Positions 30,296-62,600 of a DNA stretch of 64,000 nt are shown here, one piece after another (the first letter of the stretch is position 1; every line of letters starts with the position of its first letter). Source of the DNA: Caballeronia arationis. GTDB taxonomy: Bacteria > Pseudomonadota > Gammaproteobacteria > Burkholderiales > Burkholderiaceae. The DNA lies in assembly GCF_001544975.2 (NCBI RefSeq), contig NZ_FCOG02000028.1, forward strand, positions 1 to 64,000. Reading direction: 5' to 3'. Both the position numbers and the translations under genes were made by a program. The notes beneath the pieces are model-generated. The model was not told where the DNA came from and did no database searches. It saw nothing but the letters and a program-made list of their open reading frames with translations.

Positions 30296-30393
30296 ATGGC
30301 CAAACCGTTTGGACGATGCGTTTTTTCTTGCTCTACAGCATTTTGTGCTGGGGGGCGGGGGTGGGGTGTTGTTGAACACCGTCTGATGGTTCT

Positions 30394-31019
30394 GCGCTTC
30401 TATGGAACTTGCTTTGTTAGTGGTCTATTAGCACTGCCCCTGTCCGGGGCGGGACTTACTTTCTTTGCTGCTGCAAAGAAAGTAAGCAAAGAAAGCAGCT
30501 AGGAGGCCAACGGTATTAGGACGTGACCACACCAGCAGTACCGAGTGGCCCAGCGCCTAAGTGTCGCCCCCAAAGGACCACCGGGCTTGGCGCGCGCACG
30601 CACTGACACCCCTCGCAGTCCAACAGAGTGGTAAGCACTGCGTTCCGGTCCGTCCACGCTTCGCTCGGACGACGGGCACAACGAGAACCAGTGGATCGCA
30701 ATCTCGACCGCGAAGCTCAACTGCGCGGCTGGATGTACCTCTTGTCCAGCGAAGCGAAAACGGATGAATGACTGCTGTGCCAATTTGTTGGCTGTGCTAT
30801 GACACAGTGCGTGCCGCGCGCCAAGCCCCTTAAGTTCTTTGAGGACGACACTTAGGCGGTATGTCCACTCAGTCCTTCAAAAGCGTTGCCGTCCTAAGAC
30901 TGCTGCATGAAAAGCTGCTTTCTTTGCTTACTTTGTTTGCAGAAGCAAAGAAAGTAAGTCCCGCCCCGGACAGGGGCAGAGCAAATAGACCACAAAGAAA
31001 GCAAGTTCAATAGAAGCGC
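30394..31019. repeat. Composite repeat: arm (copy 2) - core - inverted arm (copy 3)
   Basis: Copy 2 of the dispersed repeat spans 30394-30573 in minus orientation, with its palindrome at 30456-30485. A 264-base core follows, then copy 3 at 30838-31019 in plus orientation, where the palindrome (30927-30958) has decayed by a few substitutions. The core is the reverse complement, with differences, of 56119-56382. Together they form a large inverted repeat between the aminotransferase promoter and the 3' end of the GhrA-like gene. I see no secure gene, although a 68-codon frame (30561-30767) is kept in both cores. Confidence 0.85.
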
Positions 31020-31071
31020 AAAACCATCCGACGGTGTTATCCCGCGAGCGGACGCAAGAACCCACGTCTAT

Positions 31072-45100: not shown

Positions 45101-45432
45101 TTCCCACCAAGACAGCGGCACCGCTCGACGATGTCCTCGCGTTCATCGAAGCGCATTTCGACGAGCCGGTGCGGCTTGCGCAGCTTGCAGAGCTTTCGGC
45201 GCTTTCGGTATCGCGGTTTGCGACCGTGTTCCGGCAGCAGATTGGGTTGTCGCCGTATCGGTATCTGTGCGGCGTGCGGATCCGGCGCGCGCAGACGCTC
45301 TTGCTCGCAGGCGTGCCGGGGTCGGTGGTCGCGGCCGAGGTCGGGTTCTTCGACCAGAGTCATTTCGCAAGGCACTTCAAGCGGTTTTGCGGGATGACGC
45401 CGAGTTCGTTCTTGCAGAGCGCGGGGCGGTAG
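45097..45432 (+). CDS. AraC-type regulator consisting of the DNA-binding domain only
   Basis: This 111-residue protein has both AraC helix-turn-helix motifs (LAQLAELSALSVSRFATVFRQ and VVAAEVGFFDQSHFARHFKRFCG) and no ligand domain. It starts inside the preceding oxidase gene (ATGA), so it is the last cistron of the transporter/oxidase operon. With no sensing domain it may act constitutively or through its own level, like MarA/SoxS. It may feed back on the operon. Confidence 0.88.
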   Translation: MIPTKTAAPLDDVLAFIEAHFDEPVRLAQLAELSALSVSRFATVFRQQIGLSPYRYLCGVRIRRAQTLLLAGVPGSVVAAEVGFFDQSHFARHFKRFCGMTPSSFLQSAGR

Positions 45433-45470
45433 GGCTGGGGCGAGCCGCGGTCGCACCGTTTGATTTTGAC

Positions 45471-45555
45471 GTGCTTCTATGGAACTTGTATTTTTATTGG
45501 TCTATTAGCTCTGCCCCTGTGCGGGGCGGCAGTCACTTTCTTTGCTGCTGCAAAG
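45471..45555 (-). repeat. Dispersed repeat copy 4, left half
   Basis: This segment has the same end as copy 2 (GTGCTTCTATGGAACTTG) and the GC hairpin, then stops within the palindrome at ...CTGCTGCAAAG (45555), where foreign sequence begins. The missing half is found at 56003-56118, on the far side of the integrated element. Joining the halves regenerates a regular repeat. Confidence 0.8.
45535..45555 (+). repeat. Putative attL core
   Basis: ACTTTCTTTGCTGCTGCAAAG is repeated at 56003-56022 with one base missing. Its outer side is normal repeat sequence and its inner side is element sequence. Confidence 0.65.
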
Positions 45556-45611
45556 CGAGGAATCGACCGTAAAACCTTATCAGGCGGGGTTTTCACGGAA
45601 AAATACCCTCT

Positions 45612-45634
45612 TTCACCCCCATTTCTACCCCCCT
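45612..45634 (+). repeat. C-rich direct repeat, left element end
   Basis: This 23-base sequence (TTCACCCCCATTTCTACCCC, then CCT) recurs at 55837-55859 with a single substitution and in the same orientation. It lies 56 bases inside the left end. It is probably an integrase arm-type binding site, or alternatively a second att candidate. Confidence 0.55.
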
Positions 45635-45709
45635 GATGAACTTGTTGGGAATATGCGAAAAACCCGCTGCCCGAAAATTCCGAAAATGTACGCGAGAGTG
45701 CGCGCGCAG

Positions 45710-46216
45710 TCATTTTGAGCATCCTCGCGGCAGGACTGTGTCCCGGACGCTAGCGCCACGCGAATAAAGCAGCTTCCCTTGCCCATTCCTCGCATCCGTA
45801 TTCATGTCGATAGCGGTTTCTTCGCCATTGTGAACCCACGTCATCATAACGCCGTTCATATTCCCGCCGACCGGCCAAGGATAGTGGTAGACCTTTATCA
45901 CGGGCTGTCCGTACTGCCGTAGAAATCGTGCGAGAGTAGCGGTGTAATCTGCATCGAAGTCAATTATCCGCAAGTAAGACGTTACGCCCCGCGACGGGCA
46001 TACGACAAAGGTTCCGTCTACGGACGGTCCGATTCGATTCAAGAAACGATAGGTATGGTCCGATTCATCGCCTGACATGATTAGGCCACGTCTCTCCGCG
46101 ATTGCACGCAACTCGCTCAAGGACATCCCTGAACGAATTCCATCAACATCAAATGAATAACTAGGCCCCGAAAGAAAGGAAAGCGAAACCGCGCATACTG
46201 CGAACGCTGCTCTCAT
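45710..46216 (-). CDS. Hypothetical secreted protein
   Basis: This 168-residue protein has an N-terminal signal peptide (MRAAFAVCAVSLSFLSGPSYSF). The mature region, DVDGIRSGMSLSELRAIAERRG, resembles the short 'GMS...L' repeats seen in small periplasmic proteins of unknown function. I chose the ATG at 46216 because AAGGTGAC precedes it; an upstream in-frame start would put the signal sequence in the interior. Base composition is less GC-rich than the flanking chromosome. It is an accessory cargo gene of the element with no assigned role. Confidence 0.65.
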   Translation of the reverse strand: MRAAFAVCAVSLSFLSGPSYSFDVDGIRSGMSLSELRAIAERRGLIMSGDESDHTYRFLNRIGPSVDGTFVVCPSRGVTSYLRIIDFDADYTATLARFLRQYGQPVIKVYHYPWPVGGNMNGVMMTWVHNGEETAIDMNTDARNGQGKLLYSRGASVRDTVLPRGCSK

Positions 46217-46574
46217 CTTGTCACCTTGGAGAATTCGATTCGCGTACGTTGCGTCCGCCACGCGCGCGTCGCGAAATTATTCCATTCCAACTTTCCGCAA
46301 GAATCTTTCAGCAGGTGCCTGGTTGAGCCAATCCGCGCCGGGTCGGGGTAGCGGGCGAAGCGGGAATGGCCCGACAAGGGTCCACTCGGCGAACTAGAAA
46401 CCGCTCGTGAAGGTGGGTGCAGATGGTAGGGCCACCGCACCCTTCCAGCGGCTTCTGCGCGAGGTTTTGTGCACGACTGTTCGTGGCATGGCTCGCAGCC
46501 GACCCAGAGCGGAAGTTGTTCAGTTGAAATAGCAGACATTCAACATCCCCTAGAAGGAAAGGTTGAGCATCGAT
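46217..46574. other. 358-bp cargo spacer with one doubtful small frame
   Basis: No convincing gene is present. A minus-strand frame (46213-46539) has AGGGG eight bases before its ATG and starts MSAISTEQLPLWVGCEPCHE. It then becomes low-complexity and overlaps the next gene's start. It may be a decayed or spurious gene. Confidence 0.3.
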
Positions 46575-47105
46575 CTATTGAATGTGGTTGTCAGCAAAGA
46601 ATCTCTCCCAAACACCAATGACCTCCGAAACAAGATCTTCTGCTGCGATTTTGGAGCCATCTTTCATTTGGATCTTCAGCCGCCAAGGTGGTTGTGATGT
46701 AGGTGCAATTCCTTGTTCGCCCGCCTGTTCCGATACCTCCGCTATATGGAGCCGGCTGGTTTGCGCGGTAGGTGAAATATTGACGTTGGCAACTATGGGA
46801 GGATGCTCCCGATACGGACCGCGCTCCAAGGTAAGGATCAAGTGCTTACTGGCGTTGCAGAGATCGCGACATGCCCCGAGCGAATCCGAACCATTGAGTA
46901 GGGCGGTAACTGTTCCCTTCAACTCAGGGCGAAATGCCTTGACCCAGTCCAGAAGATGGTAGGCACTGATTGCAAAATTGAACAGCGAGTCGCGAACCGC
47001 CGATTGATCGCAAATGCTCAGCGCTTGAGTTAAGGCCTCGCCGTCGCGCCTCGCCTTGTCGAGCAGCTCTACGGGACTGCCGTAGATAGCACTAAGAAGT
47101 TTCAT
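46575..47105 (-). CDS. Hypothetical helical protein with YHLLDW...LCNASKH motifs
   Basis: This 176-residue soluble protein has no signal peptide. Conserved-looking motifs FAISAYHLLDWVKA and CRDLCNASKHLIL suggest a helical bundle, in the style of HEPN-like or other small nucleic-acid-associated folds. I cannot assign a family, and it lacks an obvious R-x4-6-H HEPN ribonuclease signature. It lies among lower-GC cargo genes at the left end of the element. A defence or fitness role is possible from context only. Confidence 0.62.
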   Translation of the reverse strand: MKLLSAIYGSPVELLDKARRDGEALTQALSICDQSAVRDSLFNFAISAYHLLDWVKAFRPELKGTVTALLNGSDSLGACRDLCNASKHLILTLERGPYREHPPIVANVNISPTAQTSRLHIAEVSEQAGEQGIAPTSQPPWRLKIQMKDGSKIAAEDLVSEVIGVWERFFADNHIQ

Positions 47106-47199
47106 GTCGACCCCAATGTAGGTTCACGTGGCAGGCATGTTGTTGCCGGAATTGACCGGCGCTGGAATAGGCTCATTATTTTGAATCACATTTCTCTGC

Positions 47200-47664
47200 T
47201 TAGAACGGCAGCCAATCAAGCTGCGAACATCGCCTCACCCTCTGCATCGTGTCCGTGGTGCATGCGTTCATGCATTGCATAGGATTGGGCTTGTTCTGAC
47301 ATGTCGCCATGCATTGGGTTGCTTCCGTCAAAGCTCGCTGCGAATCGTCCTTCCCTTGAGCCATAGCGGCAAGCAATGCTGTTGAATCAAGATAGGGCAT
47401 GCGAGGCACGAGATAGCGCTGTAATCGGGCAAGGTTTTGCTGCGCGTCAGCGGCGAGCTTTTTTATCGCCTGATCAACCTGGGAATTAGAAGGCGGTTCT
47501 GTCATTGCGTTCTGGTAGATATCGACCTGGTTTCTCACGATCGGCACGCAATACGCCGCCCGAAGATCGACATCGTTCGGCGGCTGCAGTTGTTGCTGCG
47601 CGAAGCCATGAATGGGTATCTGGGCGAAGAGGAGAACCGCGAGCTTTTTCTTTAGAGATTTCAT
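47200..47664 (-). CDS. Hypothetical secreted cysteine-containing protein
   Basis: This 154-residue protein has a lysine-rich start and hydrophobic signal (MKSLKKKLAVLLFAQIPIHGFAQ), so export to the periplasm is likely. The C-terminal part has five cysteines in a cluster (CMATCQNKPNPMQCMNAC, then a further C), which suggests disulphides. No family is recognised. It is a cargo gene of the integrated element with low GC relative to the flanks. Confidence 0.6.
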   Translation of the reverse strand: MKSLKKKLAVLLFAQIPIHGFAQQQLQPPNDVDLRAAYCVPIVRNQVDIYQNAMTEPPSNSQVDQAIKKLAADAQQNLARLQRYLVPRMPYLDSTALLAAMAQGKDDSQRALTEATQCMATCQNKPNPMQCMNACTTDTMQRVRRCSQLDWLPF

Positions 47665-47718
47665 TCTTACTCTTCAAAAAAAGGCGAGTGTCCCTGTTAG
47701 AGCACACCCGCCTTTGCG

Positions 47719-48156
47719 TCATTCCGTGCTGTCGCTTTTGACGATCCGGCGCAGCGTGTCGCCTTCGACATACCGCCAGTTGATTGCGCCGTCTGGCATC
47801 GACTCATCAGGCGCGTCATACACGCCAGCGAAGCCCAAGCCATTTTCGTCGATGAACAGCAGCAGAAGCCTGCCATCCACTCGTGAACGCATCAAGCGAG
47901 CATGATCAAAATCACACGCGTCAGGCTGAGTCTGAAGAAAGTGCCACACGGTTACATCGCATATTTTCACCGCTTCTTCTTGGCTCAGGCCACAGCCCGT
48001 TTCCAACACAAGTTGATACCCCTTCGAGGGATTCACCATCGCTTCTCTCCATTGAGGGTTGAAGTAATGGCGAACGGCGGGCGCTATGTTCCGGGCTATA
48101 AGCGTGCCGTGCGCCCGCACCCCAAATCGAATGATCCAAGTGTACGTAACGCCCAT
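47719..48156 (-). CDS. Hypothetical protein
   Basis: This 145-residue cytoplasmic protein has mixed strand/helix character (DGRLLLLFIDENGLGFAGVYDAPDE) and no known motif. CGGAG precedes the ATG at 48156. It is the innermost of the left-end cargo genes. Its start region overlaps the doubtful frame at 48096-48356. Confidence 0.55.
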   Translation of the reverse strand: MGVTYTWIIRFGVRAHGTLIARNIAPAVRHYFNPQWREAMVNPSKGYQLVLETGCGLSQEEAVKICDVTVWHFLQTQPDACDFDHARLMRSRVDGRLLLLFIDENGLGFAGVYDAPDESMPDGAINWRYVEGDTLRRIVKSDSTE

Positions 48157-48356
48157 ACCACTCCGCGATCCGGTGCATCGAGAGCGCGCTTGCCATCAGC
48201 GCGAGAGCGACGCATTGAAGCCTTCCGGCCAGAACACCGGGTAAATGATGGGCCGTTTTGCGTGTTCAGAGGAACCGGGTATACCCGCGGAAAACGCTTC
48301 ACGCCCTTGCCGCGCTTGCGCACATCCTTCTCAAGCCAGAACGGCGAATCGGTCAT
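48096..48356 (-). CDS. Doubtful, probably truncated phage protein
   Basis: This 86-codon frame starts by ATGA overlap with the 76-residue gene upstream, a real coupling signal. Its first 30 or so residues (MTDSPFWLEKDVRKRGKGVK, then RFPRVYPVP) look protein-like. The rest is arginine-rich and overlaps the next gene, as expected if the original gene was cut or frameshifted here. It marks the boundary where further morphogenesis genes would be expected. Confidence 0.35.
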   Translation of the reverse strand: MTDSPFWLEKDVRKRGKGVKRFPRVYPVPLNTQNGPSFTRCSGRKASMRRSRADGKRALDAPDRGVVWALRTLGSFDLGCGRTARL

Positions 48357-48583
48357 CGGCGTGGCACGTAGGCGCGCACGAAGTTCTCATCGGTGGTCGG
48401 TCCCGCGACGGCGGGCACCGGCTCGGGCATCGCGGGCGGCTCAGTCACCTTCAGTTCGCGCAAGCGGTCGGTGACAAGCTCGCCGCAGGCTTCTTCAAGC
48501 GGCATGTTCTCGCTCTTCGCGTAGCTTTCGAGCAAGCGCCGGGTGCCCGGTGTGAGCCATGCGATTGTGGGATGCGAAGCCAT
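48353..48583 (-). CDS. Small hypothetical phage protein
   Basis: This 76-residue protein starts at the ATG at 48583 after GGGAGA. The N-terminal half (TPGTRRLLESYAKSENMPLEEACGELVTDRLREL) resembles a short ribbon-helix-helix-like or small structural helix pair; the tail is proline-rich. It lies between the small terminase and the left boundary of the phage module. Confidence 0.55.
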   Translation of the reverse strand: MASHPTIAWLTPGTRRLLESYAKSENMPLEEACGELVTDRLRELKVTEPPAMPEPVPAVAGPTTDENFVRAYVPRR

Positions 48584-48730
48584 CGACCATCTCCCGTGAA
48601 GAGGATGAAGGGTGCGCGGTAACTCGCGGTGCCGCGCCACCGCCGCACGCTGCGTGTTGACCGTCACGAAGTGTGCGGTGCCGACTGATGGAACGCGCTT
48701 AACCGAACATCATCCGGCCCGAAGCTGGTT

Positions 48731-49162
48731 TCAAGCCCACGGCTTCTTCGAGGTCGGCGCGGCGTTGGCCTTCGTCGCGGCGGTGTCGCAGCGCATCCGC
48801 GAAGACGGCGTGAGGCGAAGCTTCATCCCCACTGCGCACAGCACCGCCGCGCTCGTGCTCATCACGAACACCGCCGGATGCGTCACCCGGCGCCCGCGCG
48901 GGCCGTCGATCACCGCACCATCGCGGGCAATTTCCGCCGCCGCGCTTTCCAAGTTAGCGCTCGCGCACACGAAGGCCCGCAACAGCGGCATATCACGCGC
49001 AGTGAAGAAGTCGGCGGGCAGCGAGCCAACCACTTCGCGCCACGTGCGCCGGGCGGCCGGTGACAGCCCGGGCGGTGCCGCAAGCGGTGCCCGTGCCACC
49101 AGTTGCAGTGGTGGGGCTTCGAGTTCGGACGCCGATTGGCGTCCACGATGGCGAGCGGGCAT
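48731..49162 (-). CDS. Phage terminase small subunit, P27 family
   Basis: This protein of about 143 residues has the P27 hallmarks: a proline-rich entry (APPGLSPAARRTWREVV), then LPADFFTARDMPLLRAFVCA, with a late HPAVFVMSTSAAVLCAVG helix region. AAGGAG precedes the ATG at 49162. The small subunit recognises phage DNA for packaging. Its usual partner, the large terminase ATPase/nuclease, is not next to it or anywhere in the element, so packaging would need a helper phage or has been lost. Confidence 0.8.
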   Translation of the reverse strand: MPARHRGRQSASELEAPPLQLVARAPLAAPPGLSPAARRTWREVVGSLPADFFTARDMPLLRAFVCASANLESAAAEIARDGAVIDGPRGRRVTHPAVFVMSTSAAVLCAVGMKLRLTPSSRMRCDTAATKANAAPTSKKPWA

Positions 49163-49389
49163 AGTCGAACTCCTTGGCTTCGGTACCACTGGCTTCGAGC
49201 CAGATTGCGGCCCGGTTCGAGCCGAGGTAGTGGCACCTTCAATCGTGCCGATTATGCGCCAATTTGAGGGGCCAATTCATGCAAATAGTGCGGCCCACTT
49301 TTAGGGCTTTTGAGAAGCGGAGGGGCTCACGGGGTTCCCAAAAGCCGTCTTGCTTCTTAGGGTATACCCGCCCCTGTCTCTTCCCCCGA

Positions 49390-49683
49390 TTATTTGAACC
49401 GCGGGTGCGTATCGTCCATCGGCAAGCCGCTCGCGTCGCACCAAAGTCTTCGCTTGCCTTGCTCTTCGAGTGTCTTCTTCGCGTGGCACGTAGTGCATAA
49501 GCTTTGCAAGTTGTCTTCGTAATCGGTGCCACCGTGAGCGAGCGGCACGCGGTGATCAACTTCGGTGGCTTCCGTGAGTAAGCCTTGCGCTTCGCAATGC
49601 GCGCACAACGGGAAGCGCCGAAGTTGACGCTCGCGGATAGCGGACCATGCACGGCCGCGTGTGCGGTTGGTGTACTTGCTCAT
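49390..49683 (-). CDS. HNH endonuclease
   Basis: This 97-residue nuclease has zinc-binding Cys pairs (LCAHC and LCTTCH) around the HNH core EVDHRVPLAHGG...DNLQSLC. Such small HNH proteins sit beside terminase and capsid genes in many phages and are needed for DNA packaging cleavage. It precedes the small terminase gene by 227 bases; that gap shows no gene. The position fits a packaging module. Confidence 0.88.
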   Translation of the reverse strand: MSKYTNRTRGRAWSAIRERQLRRFPLCAHCEAQGLLTEATEVDHRVPLAHGGTDYEDNLQSLCTTCHAKKTLEEQGKRRLWCDASGLPMDDTHPRFK

Positions 49684-49722
49684 CTAGTCCACCCCTGCAA
49701 TGAAGAAGCGATTCGAGTCCTC

Positions 49723-49947
49723 TCAACCGTAGGCGAAGCGCATCAGTTGCGCTGCCGTCCAGCCGTGGAAGCGCATGCGCTCGTCGTCCGCAAGCAAAGC
49801 ATCGAGGCTTCGGAAATAGGCGATGCAGTGCGCCGCGTTGTCTCTGTCGAAGGCAGTGCCATAGCGTGCGGCAACAGTGGCTTCGGCCGCGCTCTTCGTT
49901 GCTTCGTAGAGTTCGCGGGCTTGGAGTTTTGTCGTGAAGTAGTCCAT
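49723..49947 (-). CDS. Small hypothetical phage protein
   Basis: This protein of about 74 residues (MDYFTTKLQARELYEATKSA, helical) may start upstream at 49965 instead; ribosome-site evidence is weak for both. The sequence is alanine-rich with a C-terminal FHGWTAAQLMRFAYG. No family is recognised. It lies between capsid-associated genes and the HNH gene. Confidence 0.5.
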   Translation of the reverse strand: MDYFTTKLQARELYEATKSAAEATVAARYGTAFDRDNAAHCIAYFRSLDALLADDERMRFHGWTAAQLMRFAYG

Positions 49948-49986
49948 GCCCGCGCATAACGGCATCACGTCCGGAAACTTGAGCGG

Positions 49987-50310
49987 TCATCGATACAGAC
50001 CGGGGCGCGTGGTGAAGATGCTCGTGCCGGTGCTCGCGGCGTACTCCTTCTTCGCCTTGGCACTGTCGGTGATGCGTCCGACCACCAGACCACCGGGCAG
50101 CATGAAGAGCGCGGCATCGACACCGGGCGCGAACTCACGCAGCACCACGGCATTGCGATCCAGTGCGAGCCCGCACTTGAGTGCATCGCGTAGTTGGTGG
50201 GTGAGGTCGGTGCGCGCGGCCTTGATGATGTCGAGTGAGTCGAGTGTGGCCGGTTGCAGAATCACGATGCGTTCGCCCGCAACAGGTGGTGCTTTGGATA
50301 GCTTGCTCAT
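49987..50310 (-). CDS. Hypothetical phage protein
   Basis: This 107-residue protein starts by ATGA overlap with the upstream 109-residue gene. Its N-terminal half (GERIVILQPATLDSLDIIKAARTDLTHQLRDAL) and beta-rich centre give no family assignment. It lies in the capsid-proximal operon of the element, where head-assembly or connector proteins are usual. Confidence 0.6.
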   Translation of the reverse strand: MSKLSKAPPVAGERIVILQPATLDSLDIIKAARTDLTHQLRDALKCGLALDRNAVVLREFAPGVDAALFMLPGGLVVGRITDSAKAKKEYAASTGTSIFTTRPGLYR

Positions 50311-50636
50311 CGTGCGTCTCCTTGTTGGCGCAATAGGCGGATGGTGTGCGTGGCATCGTCTTCGTCATCCTGATCATCGGGCGGTGGTGGTCGCGGATGG
50401 TCATCGAGCGCGGCATCAACGAAGACGGCAAAGCTTGGGAACACGGGCGCGCAGTGATGCCGGGTGAGCACGGTGCGCACGGCAGCATCAAACACGGTGC
50501 TGGCGTGCACGGCACTGAGCGATGAGCTGCCATGCTTGCGCCATGCGCTCACGTGTTGCTCGGCAAGCGCCATCGCCTCTTCGAGCATGGTGGTGCGCTC
50601 GGCATCGTCGGCGGGTAACAGCAAGTCGGTGTGCAT
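50307..50636 (-). CDS. Hypothetical phage protein with acidic tail
   Basis: This 109-residue protein starts at 50636 after GGAGACATATC. The N-terminal part is helical (DDAERTTMLEEAMALAEQHV) and the C-terminal part has a proline/aspartate-rich stretch (RPPPPDDQDDEDD). It follows the capsid gene by 14 bases and is coupled to the next gene. A small head-associated role is inferred from position only. Confidence 0.58.
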   Translation of the reverse strand: MHTDLLLPADDAERTTMLEEAMALAEQHVSAWRKHGSSSLSAVHASTVFDAAVRTVLTRHHCAPVFPSFAVFVDAALDDHPRPPPPDDQDDEDDATHTIRLLRQQGDAR

Positions 50637-50650
50637 GATATGTCTCCGGG

Positions 50651-51703
50651 TCACTTGCCACGCGCGACGGCAGCCGCCGGGAATACACCACCGAGCACCA
50701 CCGCCGCGCCGGGTCGTGCGGTCCAGTTGACATACGCAATCGAGCGCGCGCCGATCAGGTTTTCTTGCCACAGGTTCAGCCATTCGGAACCGCCGCCTTC
50801 GATTTGCATTTCCACCGCCGCTTCGGTGCTCGGATCAATGTCGATCACGGGGCCAGCCACCGCGACGCTCGAAGGATCGAGCAGGATCAGGGTGTTAGCG
50901 GGCACGCCTTGATTCGCGATGGCAGGTAAGCCCGCTAAGCGGCTCACGCCACCCGTCATGAGGTCCGCCGCGCCGATGCCAGCGCCCATCATGCCGAAGG
51001 CGAAGGCCAAGCCGGGATTCATCAGCCACACCGCCGAAGCCAGATCGCCATCGAAGGCTTCGATCATCTCAGCCATATCGCCGCTCAGGTCCGCCGCCGA
51101 GCTTCCCGAACTTGCGATCACGGTGGCATCGGCGGTGACGCTCGCGGGCTTCTCGCCGGGCACACCCGCGTTCGCCGGGTCCGCGAAGGCTTTGGCTATC
51201 TCGGCGTTATTCCCCGCCGACAGTCCGCGCGCAATCGCAAGATCAGCGACCGGGCCGAACGTGCGCATCTGCTCGATGGGCGCGAAATAGAGCGATCCCA
51301 CCTTGAGCACATCGAGCGAATGCAGCGACAGGCCGCCACCAGACACCGGCAGCGGCGTGCCTTCGCCCACCCATGCGCCGGTAGCGCCCGAGTCTTGCAG
51401 CAGGAAGCGGGAATTGAAGCCAACCTGAAGAAGCCCGCCACTCGCCGCGTTGATTTGCCCGAGCAAGTTGCTGCGCGGAGACACGCCGAGCAAGCCGGTG
51501 CTCGCGAGACGCGCGGTGCTGTCGTCAACGATTGAGCCGGTGCCGTCGATGTCACGCTGCACCAGCCGATATGGGATTGAGTTCGCGCCGTGGTTCGCTT
51601 CGATAAAGGCGCGGGCGCTGAGAAAATCGCCTTTGCTCAGCGCGACGGCGCGCGCCATCCGCGCATACGCCAAGGGCACTTCATCCGCGATCAGGTTTGC
51701 CAT
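50651..51703 (-). CDS. Major capsid protein, HK97-fold type
   Basis: This 350-residue protein has the layout of the HK97 capsid family without a large scaffolding domain: an extended N-arm, a central GAWVGEGTPLPVS segment (typical E-loop/spine region), a PVADLAIARGLSAGNNAEIAK middle and a C-terminal strand region (ENLIGARSIAYVNW). GGAGC precedes the ATG. It would form the shell of a particle. A private capsid with no portal or tail genes nearby is the main reason to consider a satellite. Confidence 0.75.
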   Translation of the reverse strand: MANLIADEVPLAYARMARAVALSKGDFLSARAFIEANHGANSIPYRLVQRDIDGTGSIVDDSTARLASTGLLGVSPRSNLLGQINAASGGLLQVGFNSRFLLQDSGATGAWVGEGTPLPVSGGGLSLHSLDVLKVGSLYFAPIEQMRTFGPVADLAIARGLSAGNNAEIAKAFADPANAGVPGEKPASVTADATVIASSGSSAADLSGDMAEMIEAFDGDLASAVWLMNPGLAFAFGMMGAGIGAADLMTGGVSRLAGLPAIANQGVPANTLILLDPSSVAVAGPVIDIDPSTEAAVEMQIEGGGSEWLNLWQENLIGARSIAYVNWTARPGAAVVLGGVFPAAAVARGK

Positions 51704-51820
51704 GTTGGTGCTCCATTGAGGGGTTAAGGTGAGCGCTCAGCATCGCGCGGGCATCGAGCGCGCACCAGAGGTTGAAACGGTCTCAAACCGGGTGAAACGG
51801 CTTCGAGCGGCCCGGCGCTT

Positions 51821-52120
51821 TCAATCGCGGCGCGTCACGTTCTCATCGATCATGGCGTCATAGCCAGTCTCAACGAAGAGCGCGCACGAAGCGAGGTCGT
51901 AGAGATACGAGCGCCCAAGACGGCGCACCCTGAGCAGCGGAGATAACCGGCCTTCGGCACGTTGCACCGCGAGCGCTTCGGTGCCGCGATAGCCCACAGC
52001 GCGAGTCGCGGCTTCTTCGGATATTTCGCCGCCCGGTGTCACGTCGATGCCTTCCTTGCGGCACCACGCACGCAAGGTGCTCAGGCGGCGCGTCACGCGC
52101 TCATCGAGGTCGGCGGTCAT
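51821..52120 (-). CDS. Small putative DNA-binding protein
   Basis: This 99-residue basic protein has a likely helix-turn-helix in WCRKEGIDVTPGGEISEEAA...VGYRGTEALAVQ followed by a basic strand pair (RVRRLGRSYLY). It resembles small excisionase-like or winged-helix proteins of mobile elements. It overlaps the next upstream gene by 4 bases. No exact family is recognised. Confidence 0.55.
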   Translation of the reverse strand: MTADLDERVTRRLSTLRAWCRKEGIDVTPGGEISEEAATRAVGYRGTEALAVQRAEGRLSPLLRVRRLGRSYLYDLASCALFVETGYDAMIDENVTRRD

Positions 52121-52554
52121 GGTGTCGTCACCTTCGACACCTTTGCGCCGTCCGTCGATGACTTCACGTGGATCACCTTGCGGCCGGTCGCGGTGCGTTG
52201 CTGATCGGCTTGCCGGGTGGCGGTGGCGGCTCGCAAGGCTTCCAGCGCGGCATCATGCGCGAGGTTTGCCCGGTAGGCTTGGACAAGCGCATCGTCGGCA
52301 TGAAGCGGCTCCTTCGGCCAGTAACGCCCGCACAGGTCATCGTGAAACACCACCGGCCACACGCCGCGCACGTTGCCGTGCCCTTCCCCACAAGCCGGAT
52401 CAAGCCAGGGCGGATCGTGGCGGCAGAAGAATTCCCCGTCCAGATTCACGGCGGTGGCATAGCGACAAGTTGCGCAGTTCGCGAGGTCTTCCAAGCGCGG
52501 CCCGAGCGGCAGCGGCTCACCGAGCACGAATACTTCGGATTCCGGTTTATTCAT
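52117..52554 (-). CDS. Hypothetical protein with a cysteine cluster
   Basis: This 145-residue protein has an N-terminal metal-site-like cluster CATCRYA...FFCRHDP and further cysteines (PACGEG, DLCGRYWPKE). It has a helical, alanine-rich middle and a basic tail. The CxxC...C..H pattern suggests zinc or iron binding. It overlaps the following gene by 4 bases (ATGA). The function is unknown; similar small proteins occur in phage replication modules. Confidence 0.58.
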   Translation of the reverse strand: MNKPESEVFVLGEPLPLGPRLEDLANCATCRYATAVNLDGEFFCRHDPPWLDPACGEGHGNVRGVWPVVFHDDLCGRYWPKEPLHADDALVQAYRANLAHDAALEALRAATATRQADQQRTATGRKVIHVKSSTDGAKVSKVTTP

Positions 52555-52588
52555 GGCGTAGCTCGATCAGAAGGCATCATCGAGGGTG

Positions 52589-52714
52589 TCATCGAGCAAC
52601 AGCGCCTTCCTGTGCGGCGCGAAGCTTGGCGGTCACGAAGCGGTGCTTGCCGTCGCGCGAAGTGCGTTCGACCGCCACGCCGTAGAGTTTTCCAGCGAGC
52701 AAGGTGGTGATCAT
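52589..52714 (-). pseudogene. Truncated SSB-like protein (41 codons)
   Basis: This short frame starts by ATGA overlap with the replication gene. Its sequence (MITTLLAGKLYGVAVERTSR, then DGKHRFVTAKLRA) matches my recollection of the first strands of single-stranded-DNA-binding-like proteins in mobile elements, which are normally more than 100 residues long. Another frame reading into the same DNA ends ...LLLDDTLDDAF, an acidic tail of the SSB kind. The gene may have lost its middle and shifted frame. Confidence 0.45.
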
Positions 52715-53664
52715 GAACGGTCTCCTTTCGAGCGCTTTACCGAGCGCGCGCAGAGCAAGCCAGTGACCATCGACGCGAACTCGCATATCGACTCGCGTGC
52801 ATTGGGATCGCGGTCGGTCGCATACACGGTGAAGGCTTCGGCAAGCATGCCGATGTTAACGCGCGGATCGGCCGCCCATTGCTTAATCACGGCGGGCACG
52901 GCGGTGCGCTTGATGACGCCGAGCGCGCGCAGATAGGACGCCATCGACTTGGTGCGCTCGCGTACTTCCAACGGGGTGAGTGCGTCACCTTGCGATAGCA
53001 AAGCGCTTTTCTTGCTGCGCTGCACAGTGGGCGCTTTCTTCGTCCGTTCGCGCTCATTGTTATCGTCGGGCAGAGAAGCCGCCGACGCCGAAGGCGGCAC
53101 CTCACGCGCGCGCGTGTTCAGCGGTGCGTGGCTATGCCGCTCCTGCCCCGTGTGCTTTAACCGCGTACTTTTACCGTGTATGTGGCTCACTGGTGAGCCC
53201 ATTAGAGATGAGCAAATGAGCCCTTTACCGTTAGGCAAATGAGCCCATTTCACGCCGTTAATAGGCTCATCAGTGAGCCCATTTCCGGTCACTGTAATAG
53301 GCTCAGCAGTGAGCCCATTAGAAGGCTCGTCGTGGTCATCCGGAAGGCTCCTTTGGGCGAGTCGTTCCTTCATTTTATTGCGCAGTGCGGCAAGCGGCGG
53401 AACGTGGAATTCATAAGCGTGAATGCGCCCGGTCTTGCCGACCCGCTTCCCGGTATCGATCAAGATGCCGAGCTTGCGAAGGGTCGCAAAGTGACGCTTC
53501 ACTTGCGCGCGACTGAAGCCGGTGCGCGCACACAGGTGGTCGATTGATGGAAAGAGCTTGTCGTCTTTTCGGTCTCGGACCATATCGGCCAGCACGAAGG
53601 CGAGCGGCCATGCCGGGCCGAGTTCCGGCATCAGCGCGACAGAGGCAAGGGTGGTGAAGGTCAC
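52711..53664 (-). CDS. Replication initiator-like protein with winged-helix domain
   Basis: This 317-residue protein has an N-terminal winged helix (residues about 35-90: FPSIDHLCARTGFSRAQVKR, then HFATLRKLGIL), as in phage O-type initiators. A flexible central region is encoded by repeated DNA, and the C-terminal part (residues about 230-317) is helical and may bind partners. The five repeats inside the gene (53184-53320) look like origin iterons, the lambda O arrangement. It lies after the AlpA-like gene with 289 bases between, which hold an opposite-strand terminator. Confidence 0.65.
   Translation of the reverse strand: MTFTTLASVALMPELGPAWPLAFVLADMVRDRKDDKLFPSIDHLCARTGFSRAQVKRHFATLRKLGILIDTGKRVGKTGRIHAYEFHVPPLAALRNKMKERLAQRSLPDDHDEPSNGLTAEPITVTGNGLTDEPINGVKWAHLPNGKGLICSSLMGSPVSHIHGKSTRLKHTGQERHSHAPLNTRAREVPPSASAASLPDDNNERERTKKAPTVQRSKKSALLSQGDALTPLEVRERTKSMASYLRALGVIKRTAVPAVIKQWAADPRVNIGMLAEAFTVYATDRDPNARESICEFASMVTGLLCARSVKRSKGDRS
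53184..53320. repeat. Iteron-like repeats inside the replication gene (candidate origin)
   Basis: TGAGCCC(A/T)TT occurs five times, with TGAGCCC starting at 53194, 53217, 53240, 53274 and 53310. The first three are spaced exactly 23 bases. Three copies carry the larger unit GGCTCA-N3-GTGAGCCCATT, itself an inverted repeat. The repeats fall in the middle of the initiator coding sequence, as in lambdoid origins. Confidence 0.7.
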
Positions 53665-53730
53665 GGCGTGCCCCGCTCGGTCTTCACCACGTGGGGAAGG
53701 TGCTCACTGGCGCGCGAGCGGGTGCGGCGG

Positions 53731-53824
53731 TACGATAGCGACTGCATCGCGGTCTTTCTCCAAATCTGTAGAACGCGAAGGCAACATCGAGCGGCCCGGA
53801 ATACTCCTCCGGTGCCGCTTTTTT
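53731..53824 (+). ncRNA. Candidate small RNA opposite to the replication operon
   Basis: A plus-strand TACGAT -10-like hexamer (53731-53736; -35 weak) is followed about 55 bases later by a strong intrinsic terminator. This predicts an RNA of roughly 80 bases with no coding frame. Its direction is opposite to the alpA-rep transcript that crosses the same DNA. P4-type satellites use a small RNA for immunity, so a regulatory role is plausible but unproven. Confidence 0.4.
53791..53824 (+). terminator. Intrinsic terminator on the plus strand
   Basis: GCGGCCCGGA pairs with TCCGGTGCCGC around a 7-base loop (one mismatch/bulge) and is followed by six T residues. No annotated plus-strand gene ends here. 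Confidence 0.72.
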
Positions 53825-53953
53825 ATTGCCTTCGTCCGGGCCGCATCGGCCTTAGCTCTCATCGGATTTGATCAAGACTCGCTCGCCGCTCGTTGAACAT
53901 GTCGGCAAGGGTTAAGAGGCGGCGGCTCTGCGGCCACTCGCTTGTGTTGAGGA

Positions 53954-54262
53954 TTACGCAGCGTCATCAGCGCCTTCGCGCTTTGCTCGTTTTGCTTCCT
54001 GTGCGCGCCGCGCTTTCATCCTGAGATAAGCATCGAAGTCTTCTTCGAGCCATGCCTCATTACCCACGAGCTTGAATGAGGTCGGGAAGTCCGGGTCGGA
54101 GTTTGCCAAGCGGCGCGCGGTGGTGCGTGAGCGTCCGATCTTGCTTGCGATGCCGTTAATGTTGATCACACGCAGGGGTTTGACTGCCTCCGCAGGAAGG
54201 TCCGGCTCTTGGATATTTCGCGGTCGGCCCGGTCCACGCTTCGCTTCGATTTGCTCGCTCAT
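53954..54262 (-). CDS. AlpA-like transcriptional regulator with AT-hook-like N-terminus
   Basis: This 102-residue protein has GPGRPRN (an AT-hook-like motif) at residues 10-16. An AlpA/MerR-type helix-turn-helix follows (GIASKIGRSRTTARRLANSD), then the conserved FKLVGNEAWLEEDFDAYL wing. I chose the ATG at 54262 after GGGAG. AlpA proteins activate integrase/excision and replication genes of P4-like elements. It has a good promoter at 54303-54331 and is probably the first gene of the element's leftward operon. Confidence 0.85.
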   Translation of the reverse strand: MSEQIEAKRGPGRPRNIQEPDLPAEAVKPLRVININGIASKIGRSRTTARRLANSDPDFPTSFKLVGNEAWLEEDFDAYLRMKARRAQEAKRAKREGADDAA

Positions 54263-54302
54263 GGCGCTCCCTGCATCGCTTTGATTCGAATTGCTTAGCG
54301 AA

Positions 54303-54331
54303 ATAATGTGCGAAAATCGGATACTTTTCAA
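54303..54331 (-). promoter_or_regulatory. Promoter of the AlpA-like gene
   Basis: On the minus strand, TTGAAA (54331-54326) and CATTAT (54308-54303) are separated by 17 bp and lie about 40 bases before the ATG. This is a good sigma-70 match in an AT-rich stretch. Confidence 0.65.
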
Positions 54332-54514
54332 GGTCACATTCCCGCCATGCAGAGACTTCGAAGAGAAGGATTTTTCGCGAACGGCGAGCGGGATTCGTTT
54401 GCGAAGTATGTGCAGATGCGTGGCATTGATGTGCATAGTGATGCACAGCGATGCAACTTGTGGCAGAAGATTCAGCAGCCGTGCGGGAAGCTTTTTCTCG
54501 TTCGTGTGAAGCGG

Positions 54515-54542
54515 CGCTCATTTATTTTTATTTCAATGAGCG
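54515..54542. terminator. Hairpin after the integrase gene
   Basis: CGCTCATT and AATGAGCG form 8-bp arms around a 12-base AT-rich loop, starting 8 bases past the integrase stop. It may end the integrase transcript, although there is no T run. Confidence 0.4.
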
Positions 54543-54549
54543 GCCGTCT

Positions 54550-55812
54550 TCACATCGCATGCGCGGCTTCGAGCGGTTCGCGAAACACAGTGCCGAGCGG
54601 CAGCACCTTGGCGGCGGGTTCGCGCAAGTAATCGGCCCACGCTTGCATCAGCATCACGCGCGCATCGAAGTGCCGGGTGCGCTCATATGCCTTTTGCACC
54701 GCACCGCGCTTGTCATGCGCGAGCACGCTCTCAGCGATGTCGGCATCCACCTTGAGACGTTCAGTGAGGAAGGTGCGCAGCGATGAGCGCATTCCGTGGG
54801 TGGTCACGGTGCCGAGCGCATAGCCAAGCTTGCGCAACAGGCCCGCGAGGTCCGCATCCCAATGCGCGCGGCCGGTGCCCGAAGGAAACACCAGCGCTTC
54901 GGCACCACGTGCGCCCGGCAGCGCTTCGAGCAAGGCGAGCGCAGCATCACAGAGCGGCACATCGTGAGCGCGCTTGGTGGCCTTTCGGCCCTTCATGCGC
55001 GCGGCCGGGATGCGCCACACCTTCGCATCGGCGTCGATCTCGCCCCACACCCCGCCGCTCGCTTCGCCCGCGCGCACACCGGTAAGCACGAGAAATTCCA
55101 TCAACCGGGCGAGGTTGCCATCGACGGCGCGCAACTTCGCCATGAAGCCGGGCATCTCGCGCCATGCGAGCGCGGCGCGGTGCTCGATGGCTTCGCCCAC
55201 GGCGGGCATCAGGTTTTCAAGGTGCCCGGACCAGCGCGCCGGGTTCTCGCCTTCGCGATAGCCCGCGCTCTTCGCCCAATCGAGCACGCTCTCGATGCGT
55301 TGGCGCAGCAAGGTCGCGGTGGCGTGCTTCTTCGTCCAGATCGGCTCAAGCACTTTGAGCACGTGAGTGGTGTCAATCTCGCTCACGTCGAGGCGGCCGA
55401 TGATCGGGTTTGCGTGCAATTCGAACCCGCGCCGCCATGCGTGTGTGTTGGCGTCGCTCCACCCGCTCTTTTGCAAGTCGATGTACTTCGTCGCCGCCTC
55501 CGCGACGGCGAGTCGCTTGGCAAGCGCGGCGCGCGCCACCTTGCGGGCGTGTTGCTTCTGTCCGAGCGGATCGATGCCGCTTGCCTTGAGCTTGCGGGCA
55601 TCGGCGGCTTTTTCGCGTGCTTGCGCGAGCGTGATGGCCGGGAAGGGGCCAAGACCCATCTCGCGCTTGCGCCCGTGCAAGCCGTAGCAATAGAGCCAGC
55701 TTTTGGAGCCGGACGGCGTGACTTGTAGAATCAAGCCCGCGCCGTCTGGGTGATAGCCCGGCTCTGTGAGAGACTTGATGGCGGAAGCAGTGAGGCGGTG
55801 GATACTACGCAT
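54550..55812 (-). CDS. Tyrosine-type site-specific integrase (P4 family)
   Basis: This integrase of about 420 residues has an N-terminal arm-binding DUF4102-like domain (LTEPGYHPDGAGLILQVTPS, then GSKSW). The catalytic set includes Arg247 (LTGVRAGEA), His339 and Arg342 (THGMRSSLR), His366 (LAHDKRG) and nucleophile Tyr376 (AYERT). The start at 55812 follows GGAG. It lies at the right end of the element, 190 bases from the putative attR, as P4-type integrases do. Tandem 10-mers and a C-rich repeat between gene and end are probable integrase binding sites. Confidence 0.93.
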   Translation of the reverse strand: MRSIHRLTASAIKSLTEPGYHPDGAGLILQVTPSGSKSWLYCYGLHGRKREMGLGPFPAITLAQAREKAADARKLKASGIDPLGQKQHARKVARAALAKRLAVAEAATKYIDLQKSGWSDANTHAWRRGFELHANPIIGRLDVSEIDTTHVLKVLEPIWTKKHATATLLRQRIESVLDWAKSAGYREGENPARWSGHLENLMPAVGEAIEHRAALAWREMPGFMAKLRAVDGNLARLMEFLVLTGVRAGEASGGVWGEIDADAKVWRIPAARMKGRKATKRAHDVPLCDAALALLEALPGARGAEALVFPSGTGRAHWDADLAGLLRKLGYALGTVTTHGMRSSLRTFLTERLKVDADIAESVLAHDKRGAVQKAYERTRHFDARVMLMQAWADYLREPAAKVLPLGTVFREPLEAAHAM

Positions 55813-55836
55813 GAGGATTCTCCGAGGCGGCGTCAC

Positions 55837-55859
55837 TTCACCCCCCTTTCTACCCCCCT
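55837..55859 (+). repeat. C-rich direct repeat, right element end
   Basis: This is the partner of 45612-45634 with one substitution (22 of 23 identical), in direct orientation. It lies just upstream of the integrase start. Confidence 0.55.
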
Positions 55860-55870
55860 CAAAGCGTGAG

Positions 55871-55920
55871 GCGGTTTGAATCGGTTTGAAGCGATCTGAA
55901 GCGATCTGAAGCGATCTGAA
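55871..55920 (+). repeat. Five tandem 10-bp repeats near the right end
   Basis: The units are GCGGTTTGAA, TCGGTTTGAA and three copies of GCGATCTGAA, contiguous and in phase with one DNA turn. They lie between the integrase gene and the putative attR. They are likely binding sites for the integrase arm domain or a regulator. Confidence 0.6.
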
Positions 55921-56002
55921 GCGGAGAATTGTACTAAATTCGTTGATCCATAAGGGTTTATCGGGCGTCTCGCCGCTTCACGCTTGGATCGAGTGTAGGC
56001 TT

Positions 56003-56022
56003 ACTTTCTTTCTGCTGCAAAG
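56003..56022 (+). repeat. Putative attR core
   Basis: ACTTTCTTTCTGCTGCAAAG matches 45535-45555 except for one missing G. From 56012 rightward the sequence continues as the second half of dispersed repeat copy 4. Confidence 0.65.
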
Positions 56023-56563
56023 AAAGTAACCAAAGAAAGCAGCTTTTTCAGGCAACAGTCTTAGGACGGCAACGCACTGGCAATACCGATTGGCCCAGCG
56101 CCTAAGTGTCGCCCTCAAAGGACCATAGGGGCTTGGTGCGCGGCACGCACTGTGAAATCGCACAGTGAACAAGTTGGCACAGCGGTCATTCATCCGTTTT
56201 CGCTTCGCTGGACGAGAGGTACATCAGTCGCACGGTTGAGGTTCGCGGTCGAGGTTGCAATCCACTGGTTTTCGGTTGTGCCGTTCGTCCAAGCGAAGCG
56301 CGGACGGACCGGAACGAAGTGCATACCACTCTGTTGGAGTGCGAGAGGTGTCAGTGCGTGCGCGCGCCAAGCCCAGTGGTCCTTTGAGGGCGACACTTAG
56401 GCGCTGGGCCAGTTAGTGATGCGAGGGCGGTGACGTTTTGTGACTGCTGCCTGAAAAAGCTGCTTTCTTTGCTTACTTTCTTTGCAGCAGCAAAGAAAGT
56501 AAGTCCCGCCCCGGACAGGGGCAGAGCTAATAGACCAAAAAGAAAGCAAGTTCCACAGAAGCC
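56003..56563. repeat. Composite repeat: right half of copy 4 - core - copy 5
   Basis: The second half of repeat copy 4 (56003-56118) is followed by a 264-base core in inverted orientation relative to 30574-30837, then by intact copy 5 (56383-56563), whose 30-bp palindrome is at 56473-56502. Before the element integrated, this locus was an arm-core-arm unit like the one at 30394-31019. It lies past the 3' ends of the AraC-type and LysR genes. A GTG-started 68-codon frame (56396-56190, minus) is kept in step with its counterpart in the other core. Confidence 0.82.
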
Positions 56564-56572
56564 CAAAGCGCA

Positions 56573-57559
56573 TCACAACGGCTTGACCACGTCCACGACA
56601 AGCCCATTCTCCGCGAGCGCCTCGCGCAGCCCCAACCCCGGATACGCGCGATCGACGATCGCCATATCCGCGCGCGTCTCCTCGATGATCCAGTCTCGCA
56701 GATCGGCGACGACCGGCCGCAGCGGCCGGTTCTCCGGCCACACGAGGCAGCAGCGCCGGTTCGTCACGACGACTTCCTGCTCCGCGGGCAGCAAGGCGCC
56801 CTGGGAAAGCCAGTGCGACACCACATTGAGCCAGCCAAGCGCGATGCCCTGCCCGAGCAGCGCCGCCTGCACGACGATCGCGTAGTCGTTGAAACTCAGC
56901 ATGCCCGCCGAGTGCCGTCCGTGCCCGGCGAACGTGGCGAAGCGCTCGTGCCAGCCGCGCTCGCCGTCGTCCATGACGATCACCGTATCGCCCTGCTCGC
57001 GGCCCGCCGCAGTCCCCGACGTCTCGTGATAACGCTGGTTGCAGACCGGCAGCAGCGTCTCCGGCATCACGAGCACGCCGTTGTCGCCGATTTCGTCCTC
57101 GCGCATGAAGCGCATGCCGAGATCGACATCGACGAGCGGTCCGCCGATGCGCCCCGAAATCAGCTGGAACCGCAGATCGACCGACGGAAACGCCTGGTTC
57201 AGCCGGCTCATGCGCGGCATCAGCCAGTGCGTGGTGAACGCGGTGGACACCGAAAGCGTGACCGATTCCACGCCCGTCGCGCGTGCCTCGATCTCGCGGA
57301 TCGCGCTTTCTATCCCGTTGAAGCCTTCGGAAATTTTCCGGTAGAGAATCCTGCCGTTCTCGGTCAGTTCGATGCCGCCGCGCACGCGCTCGAACAAACG
57401 CACGCCCAGATGGTCTTCCATGCGTGACAGCATTCGGCTCACGGCGGGCTGGCTGACATACAGTTCCTGTGCGGCGCGCGTGAAGTTCCCGCAGCGCGCA
57501 GCGGCCTCGAAGACGAAGAGCGCATTGGCGCTCGGCAGTTTTTTGCGAAGGTTCGGCAT
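56573..57559 (-). CDS. LysR family transcriptional regulator
   Basis: This 328-residue regulator has a winged helix near residues 10-70 (AARCGNFTRAAQELYVSQPAVSRMLSRME) and an effector domain of GcvA/TrpI style (VSTAFTTHWLMPRMSRLNQAF). It diverges from the polyamine-type ABC operon across a 101-base promoter region that contains two inverted repeats. It is the probable regulator of that operon. Its 3' end abuts repeat copy 5. Confidence 0.92.
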   Translation of the reverse strand: MPNLRKKLPSANALFVFEAAARCGNFTRAAQELYVSQPAVSRMLSRMEDHLGVRLFERVRGGIELTENGRILYRKISEGFNGIESAIREIEARATGVESVTLSVSTAFTTHWLMPRMSRLNQAFPSVDLRFQLISGRIGGPLVDVDLGMRFMREDEIGDNGVLVMPETLLPVCNQRYHETSGTAAGREQGDTVIVMDDGERGWHERFATFAGHGRHSAGMLSFNDYAIVVQAALLGQGIALGWLNVVSHWLSQGALLPAEQEVVVTNRRCCLVWPENRPLRPVVADLRDWIIEETRADMAIVDRAYPGLGLREALAENGLVVDVVKPL

Positions 57560-57583
57560 GACCTGATGTTATGCCTGATCCAA

Positions 57584-57623
57584 CAATTTGGGAATTGCCG
57601 CCAAAAAAGAGGCGGCCTATATT
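57584..57623 (+). promoter_or_regulatory. Promoter of the polyamine-type ABC operon with two operators
   Basis: TTGCCG (-35, 57595-57600) and TATATT (-10, 57618-57623) are spaced 17 bp. CAATT-TGGG-AATTG (57584-57597) overlaps the -35, and GCCGCC-N8-GGCGGC (57597-57616) fills the spacer. Either could bind the divergent LysR protein or another repressor. Confidence 0.6.
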
Positions 57624-57660
57624 TTCTTCAACGCAGGCTTTTCAGCGAGACAAAGACGCA

Positions 57661-58737: not shown

Positions 58738-58815
58738 ATCCTTTCCGTATTTTTAGCCGCCCGCGCTTCGGGCATTCCTCTCCCGATTCATAGCAAACTG
58801 CACAAGGATGATTTC

Positions 58816-59529: not shown

Positions 59530-59532
59530 TCC

Positions 59533-60855: not shown

Positions 60856-60914
60856 CCCATGCTCTCAGGTGCATCATGACGACTGCCAAGCGGATTCTCG
60901 AAGGACCCACACTG

Positions 60915-62575: not shown

Positions 62576-62600
62576 AACCTTCTGAGTGAAACCCTTTCGC

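Follow-up and report, generated by a model that had tools for sequence, protein, structure and literature searches.

A satellite-like element with a P4-type tyrosine integrase inside the palindrome of a dispersed Caballeronia repeat

An integrase-bearing mobile element is generally expected to settle in a single conserved site, for instance a tRNA gene; phage P4 itself uses a tRNA gene, and insertion sequences (ISs) that target REP repeats are also known. In a 64,000-nt stretch of DNA from the soil bacterium Caballeronia arationis (NZ_FCOG02000028.1; hereafter the window), we analysed a 10,467-bp element that ends at position 56,022 and is very probably a mobile, satellite-like element integrated by site-specific tyrosine recombination into the palindrome of a dispersed Caballeronia unit resembling a miniature inverted-repeat transposable element (MITE). 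The closest published parallel that we found is in Neisseria, where the filamentous phage Nf/MDA integrates in dRS3 repeats with a recombinase listed as a transposase (PMC4471427, PMC3898611). In both cases the place where phage DNA integrates appears to be a short inverted repeat that is abundant between genes, but dRS3 is 20 bp long and serves a filamentous phage with a transposase, whereas the repeat described here belongs to a unit of ~0.68 kb and the enzyme is a P4-type tyrosine integrase. Phage integration in dispersed repeats is thus already known, with another type of recombinase. No description of this repeat or of this integration target was found in the titles and abstract openings, mostly of open papers, that made up our literature search.

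The element's integrase is the same three-domain enzyme as the P4/CP4-like integrases, for example that of phage P4. These are often found at tRNA genes, whereas here the site is a dispersed repeat, and no tRNA gene that could be an attachment site was found in the window or at locus L015 (G- and L-numbers are labels for comparison genomes and loci). With phage-inducible chromosomal islands (PICIs) and capsid-forming PICIs (cfPICIs), as commonly defined, the element shares an integrase, an AlpA-like regulator, a replication gene, a capsid-like protein, an HNH endonuclease and a small terminase within ~10 kb; it differs in that no large terminase or portal was recognised in it. Many PICI and prophage integrases use tRNA genes, and in helper-embedded PICIs one integrase clade repeatedly targets prophage late genes and has a doubled motif in attP (PMC10111431). 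The likeness to the helper-embedded PICIs would lie in the doubled attP motif and in a clade of integrases that has adapted to an uncommon kind of target, but the targets there are prophage genes and here a dispersed repeat of the host. Some ISs target dif (PMC10132070). Repeat-targeting ISs are likewise mobile DNA homing to repeats, and an IS of the IS481 family also lands in the palindrome described here, but they rely on a transposase and not on an integrase.

Borders of the element and the dispersed repeat unit

A preliminary description of this DNA had reported near-identical sequences of 20-21 bp at the two borders, and we found them as a 21-nt copy at attL (ACTTTCTTTGCTGCTGCAAAG) and a 20-nt copy at attR (ACTTTCTTTCTGCTGCAAAG; Table 1). 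The attR copy has one base fewer than the attL copy, and the exact block common to both borders is the 11-mer CTGCTGCAAAG (45545-45555, equal to 56012-56022). When the flanks 45400-45555 and 56023-56640 were joined, the junction was spanned in alignments with each of the 23 units or near-complete units used as references, at 83-91% identity in the best alignment of each. None of the 45 alignments of the joined flank had a gap within 20 bases of the junction (several were gapped 21-24 bases away). Since removal of the element restores a unit without a gap, the element sits inside one palindrome of a dispersed unit, and these borders bear out the earlier claim of a mobile element placed precisely within a dispersed palindromic repeat. 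The left border first proposed (45555) stands, while the right flank, AAAGTAACC, begins at 56023 and not at 56020, a slip of 3 bases.

In the window the palindrome has four plus-strand matches at ≤3 mismatches (none in 20 simulated windows), more than chance would give. The repeat of which four other copies were counted earlier proves to be part of a larger unit. Across the whole genome (9.38 Mb in 629 contigs) we found 90 forward and 92 reverse matches at the same threshold, against 0 and 1 for the reversed control, and because the palindrome matches both strands these correspond to about 90 sites. The palindrome is one half of a ~0.68-kb unit in which two palindromes of opposite orientation lie ~470 bp apart within inverted ends of ~126 nt. 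Among 24 loci of the same genome there are 16 palindrome pairs, with both palindromes showing the CTGCTG reading from outside to inside. The window itself holds three units: one complete and unoccupied, one cut by the contig start (78-221) and the one split by the element. A MITE would be expected to have terminal inverted repeats, many copies and no coding capacity, and to be present or absent between relatives with a target-site duplication. What we observed are the inverted ends, dozens of copies and the absence of the unit from the window's locus in G053, G013 and G024, with no target-site duplication defined, so that the unit may be MITE-like. No Rfam family matched the window at gathering scores that would make the repeat a known RNA.

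An exact 30-mer of the repeat was present in 29 of 41 Caballeronia genomes, with up to 138 matches in one genome, and in none of 258 genomes from 24 other genera of the family. Comparison of the unit with named plasmids by blastn returned five Caballeronia and two Paraburkholderia records, and the latter carry related palindromes with a different centre, GCCGCGGC or GCCGCCGC. These lie at L296:2501-2566 and L297:2501-2568, in Paraburkholderia phymatum pBPHY01 and Paraburkholderia sp. PGU19. Restriction to the genus holds for the exact form of the repeat, among the genomes searched. Variants occur within Caballeronia as well: at 32 places in G012, G038, G039, G047, G048 and G049 (L238-L267; 29 loci read) the palindrome of the unit continues as CATGGGACCAGAGTA, and one palindrome in G054 (L213:5197) has its asymmetric centre reversed relative to the outer arm, with CAGCAG where others have CTGCTG, as if the centre had been inverted.

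Related integrases and the sites of their elements

A search of 58 Caballeronia genomes with the integrase gave matches in 47, and the best match was examined in 30 of them; the comparison also drew on 79 genome loci outside this set, which are the best 79 of at least 566 and some of which are cut by contig ends. In a midpoint-rooted tree of 42 integrases (from 18 of the 30 Caballeronia loci, 23 of the 79 genome loci and one of two viral loci), five element integrases and one IMG/VR integrase identical to that of G022 form a single group of six rows with support 100/99. The G053 integrase is 68% identical to that of the window, and both borders of its element lie in the same palindrome, the right core again being short by 1 nt. 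The integrases of G057 and G034 (Caballeronia sp. NK8, replicon pNK81, a closed record labelled ‘complete sequence’) are 42-44% identical to the window's, with element borders likewise in the palindrome. In G022 the palindrome is cut at the junction, and the other end of the element, ~42 kb away, adjoins the rest of the unit. Both ends were mapped in all four (8,543 bp in G053, 15,517 bp in NK8, 22,629 bp in G057 and ~42 kb in G022), and the unit was restored without a gap in 27 of 27 spanning alignments for G053, 28 of 28 for NK8, all 41 alignments for G057 and all 23 units for G022.

A strict 20-mer test (≤4 mismatches) had missed G022, because its arm is cut after CTGCTGCA, and was replaced by a half-arm test once the tree had grouped the G022 integrase with the others. 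Under the latter, five of the 30 Caballeronia integrase loci touch a repeat arm, and these are exactly the five members of the group. None of 78 loci from other genera does so, nor does the one further Caballeronia locus, and in two more loci, the IMG/VR copies of G057 and G022, the sequence begins with the integrase, so that no arm could have been seen. A second integrase in G053 (42% identity, L042) has no palindrome in the surrounding 20 kb. Read from their sequences, all five distinct elements found in the integrase group, those besides the window's coming from four other species, use the repeat, with both ends in the palindrome. The survey of related integrases proposed at the outset has yielded one group whose borders all lie in the same palindrome and no such borders at the other integrase loci tested, and this supports the initial suggestion that a tyrosine-integrase element takes an abundant palindrome as its attachment site.

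The cargo of these elements differs. That of G053 includes capsid, prohead protease and primase/helicase genes, and that of NK8 a radical-SAM gene as well as a type I restriction-modification system. Over 11.2 kb the G057 element matches a viral contig of IMG/VR, and the contig start and integrase of G022 match another IMG/VR contig. By tblastx the elements share the integrase end, and the comparison was otherwise too noisy. On balance we favour a tyrosine integrase lineage specialised on a genus-restricted repeat that is itself mobile. This selfish repeat of the host would offer dozens of neutral, self-renewing landing sites, which unrelated cargoes (satellite-like elements, prophage-size elements and defence islands) would exploit through a shared integrase-plus-attP module. 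An integrase group whose other aligned members are 42-68% identical to that of the window keeps a dispersed repeat, with ~90 candidate sites in the genome, as its target. It makes testable why integrases prefer gene targets, how the number of sites affects the load of elements and whether a selfish element can provide another with safe places to insert, and it offers a natural multi-site integration system for Caballeronia.

Broken palindromes were also counted directly, with four patterns in the 58 Caballeronia genomes, all of which missed G022. Pattern A gave five places: the NK8 end (L206), three single-base variants (L202, L203 and L205) and L204, which continues into other sequence with phoR/phoB/phoU-like genes further on (by eye). 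Pattern B gave three, the window, a diverged copy (L208) and a half copy beside metabolic genes (L209, by eye). Pattern C gave 23, comprising the attR of the window and of G053, two single-base variants (L219 and L225) and 19 IS insertions in seven genomes. Of the 33 places found with pattern D, 30 were read (the G057 end and 29 of the unit variant), and three in G012 are not included. No element outside the integrase group emerged from this census, which would miss elements whose arm happens to continue the repeat. A pattern search of viral contigs gave three places, and two further patterns gave none. Two of the three (L322 and L323) are other sequence, and at L307:654 (IMGVR_UViG_2911618728_000002) the palindrome contains what is likely to be the end of a sixth element; it resembles the distal end in NK8, with no integrase seen.

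The 19 IS insertions (G001, G005, G013, G017, G034, G038 and G048, that is 7 of 58 genomes; for example L216, L217 and L236) have ends TGTATAGACCGG and lie in the same palindrome, directly after TTACTTTCTTTGCAGCAG. At L236 the transposase that adjoins the insertion is of the IS481 type, and in the unit at L307 the other palindrome carries the same IS end (TGTATAGACCGG type). Since the palindrome receives both an IS and integrase elements, mobile DNA of at least two kinds is drawn to the repeat.

Host locus, crossover and competing explanations

The flanking genes of the window adjoin each other in G053, G013 and G024, with neither unit nor element, and the nearest relative, G051 (93-95%), has no unit at the locus and an inversion next to the spot. 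Compared with window 56568-64000, the segment right of the element is inverted in G051 (L085) relative to the left flank, with the breakpoint in this intergenic region, and no palindrome within 4 mismatches was found. Since relatives are without both unit and element at the locus, we infer a nested history in which the unit came first and the element then entered it. For the G057 and G053 elements we surveyed the 12 best loci each. Among the 11 other loci for G057, eight are without the unit and three (G009, G017 and G019) have unit sequence by the left flank, with the contig ending in or near the unit; among the 11 for G053, one (G013) has a unit cut by the contig start and ten have none. No clean empty palindrome at an occupied position was found among the loci surveyed for the window, G057 and G053 elements. 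The search for empty sites that the preliminary description recommended has therefore turned up relatives in which the flanks lie together without the element, but the whole unit is missing there too and no intact repeat was seen.

Three of the five elements (window, G053 and G022) carry a doubled G-rich motif immediately ahead of the integrase gene, with an inverted counterpart ~50-80 bp in from the opposite end. At similar positions NK8 carries another doubled motif, of the TGTTGGA type (by eye), and this is also present at the likely sixth end in the IMG/VR contig. Such paired end motifs have the layout expected of arm-type integrase sites, which would account for the C-rich repeats noticed earlier. 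Those repeats had been named as an alternative place for the junction and were ruled out as such, being internal to the element, at both of its ends, and keeping that position in two relatives.

The blocks of identity between host and element overlap in the left part of the palindrome (CTTTGCA, CAGCAG reading) in four elements and within TTTGCTGCTGCA in G022, and because they are off-centre, strand exchange is probably off-centre as well. The initial idea of a symmetric target for a symmetric recombinase is accordingly only loosely right, as the shared block is the left part and not the centre. Four elements have their integrase on the inner side of the unit, and the G022 element has it on the outer side. 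In the mechanism that we propose as most likely, the integrase would bind doubled arm sites at the two ends of the element and, within the palindrome, core sites around CTTTGCAGCAG; it would exchange strands within the CTTTGCAGCAG block, leaving the palindrome split as attL and attR. It would belong to a group specialised on the repeat, with cargoes that range over satellite-like and prophage-size elements and a restriction-modification island.

Several observations weigh against integration of this kind. An intact unit without the element was found at the window's locus in no genome, and relatives also have no unit there. The shared blocks differ among the elements (CTTTGCAGCAG; a 17-nt block; a block ending at CTTTGCA; TTTGCTGCTGCA), so the crossover is not placed to the base, and G057 has neither the G-rich nor the CCATAAGG motif, while NK8 is without the G-rich one. 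The G022 element is inserted in the opposite orientation to the other four, so both insertion orientations occur. The loci behind the comparison are the best match in each of 30 genomes and, outside these, the best 79 of at least 566.

The repeat arms might instead be part of the mobile element, or have been brought by it, the element having moved by transposition or by homologous recombination between repeats. Units occur in many copies, relatives differ in having them or not, copies could plausibly recombine with each other, and the G051 inversion lies next to the window's locus. We nevertheless regard this origin of the arms as very improbable, since the unit is interrupted within the same short palindrome in five elements of differing cargo, the inner sequence beside the core is particular to each element, and, as a strong argument in all five, the two host parts join without a gap. 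That draft contigs were misjoined at the repeat is more improbable still: the assembly consists of 629 contigs, several of which stop inside the repeat or close to it, but the same architecture occurs in the closed replicon pNK81 of NK8 and in three other independent assemblies, and the 1-nt-short attR core of the window is common to G053.

Site-specific integration into the palindrome is compatible with a third possibility, that the element is a degraded prophage or satellite which no longer moves, so that its site use is a fossil. This we consider possible but somewhat doubtful. In its favour, comparison of 16 distinct ORFs (open reading frames) of the window with PHROGs, 10 of them also with Pfam, revealed no recognisable large terminase, portal or tail gene. 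On the other side, the integrase is full length with all catalytic residues, the element has attL, attR and the paired end motifs, and the same site is used in another species by a relative with 68% integrase identity. The element may still be mobile.

Gene content of the element

All recognised genes lie on the minus strand, running from the integrase (Table 1). The integrase has arm-binding, central and catalytic domains, a CP4-like chain is among its PDB sequence matches, and it is 31.9% identical to P4 Int. Residues R247, K274, H339, R342, H366 and Y376, which we take to be the catalytic ones, are invariant in four aligned members of the group (that of G022 is not among the four); the protein would probably catalyse the exchange. 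The core set of phage satellites is present (integrase, AlpA-like regulator, the latter weak at 1.3e-5, and replication gene), whereas of the packaging and capsid genes of cfPICIs only the capsid-like, HNH and small terminase genes were recognised. A complete cfPICI set comprises capsid, protease, both terminase subunits and portal or connectors. Because neither a large terminase nor a portal was recognised, we call the element satellite-like and do not class it as a PICI or cfPICI.

Table 1. Positions of the repeat unit, attachment sites and genes in the window
Feature	Position	Strand	Remarks
Complete unoccupied unit, two inverted palindromes	30375..31038		Same window
Left part of split unit (outer inverted end and left palindrome part)	45434..45555	+	83% over 109 nt to unit at 30377-30485
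attL, 21 nt	45535..45555	+	Exact shared block CTGCTGCAAAG at 45545-45555
Putative distal arm-type integrase site, doubled C-rich motif ACCCCCATTTCTACCCCCC	45615..45633	+	Pattern found at only one other place in the 64-kb window
ORF, 183 aa	45710..46261	-	No family at E below 0.01 in PHROGs or PADLOC
ORF, 176 aa	46575..47105	-	No family in PHROGs or PADLOC
ORF, 154 aa	47200..47664	-	No family at E below 0.01 in PHROGs or PADLOC
ORF, 145 aa	47719..48156	-	No family in PHROGs or PADLOC
ORF, 104 aa	48353..48667	-	Weak match to phrog_5333 (unknown function), E 0.0045
Terminase small subunit, P27 / Terminase_4 family	48731..49189	-	PF05119 6.9e-11; TIGR01558 above cut-off
HNH endonuclease	49390..49683	-	PF01844 5.1e-13; phrog_2323
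Major capsid-like protein	50651..51703	-	phrog_617 major head protein 5.8e-17; no Pfam or NCBIfam match
Replication initiator (O-like)	52711..53664	-	phrog_391 1.6e-11; HTH_36
AlpA/excisionase-like regulator (weak match)	53954..54436	-	phrog_66 1.3e-5; no Pfam match
P4/CP4-type tyrosine integrase, 420 aa	54550..55812	-	PF13356, PF22022 and PF00589 all above cut-off
Putative integrase-side arm-type site, ACCCCCCTTTCTACCCCCC	55840..55858	+	
attR, 20 nt	56003..56022	+	1-nt-short core recurs in the independent G053 element
Right part of split unit, second palindrome at 56480-56499	56012..56568	+	86% to unit at 30365-31048; end near 56568

Between the attR core and the integrase gene, the window also carries tandem repeats of ~10 bp (gcgatctgaa) at 55880-55930.

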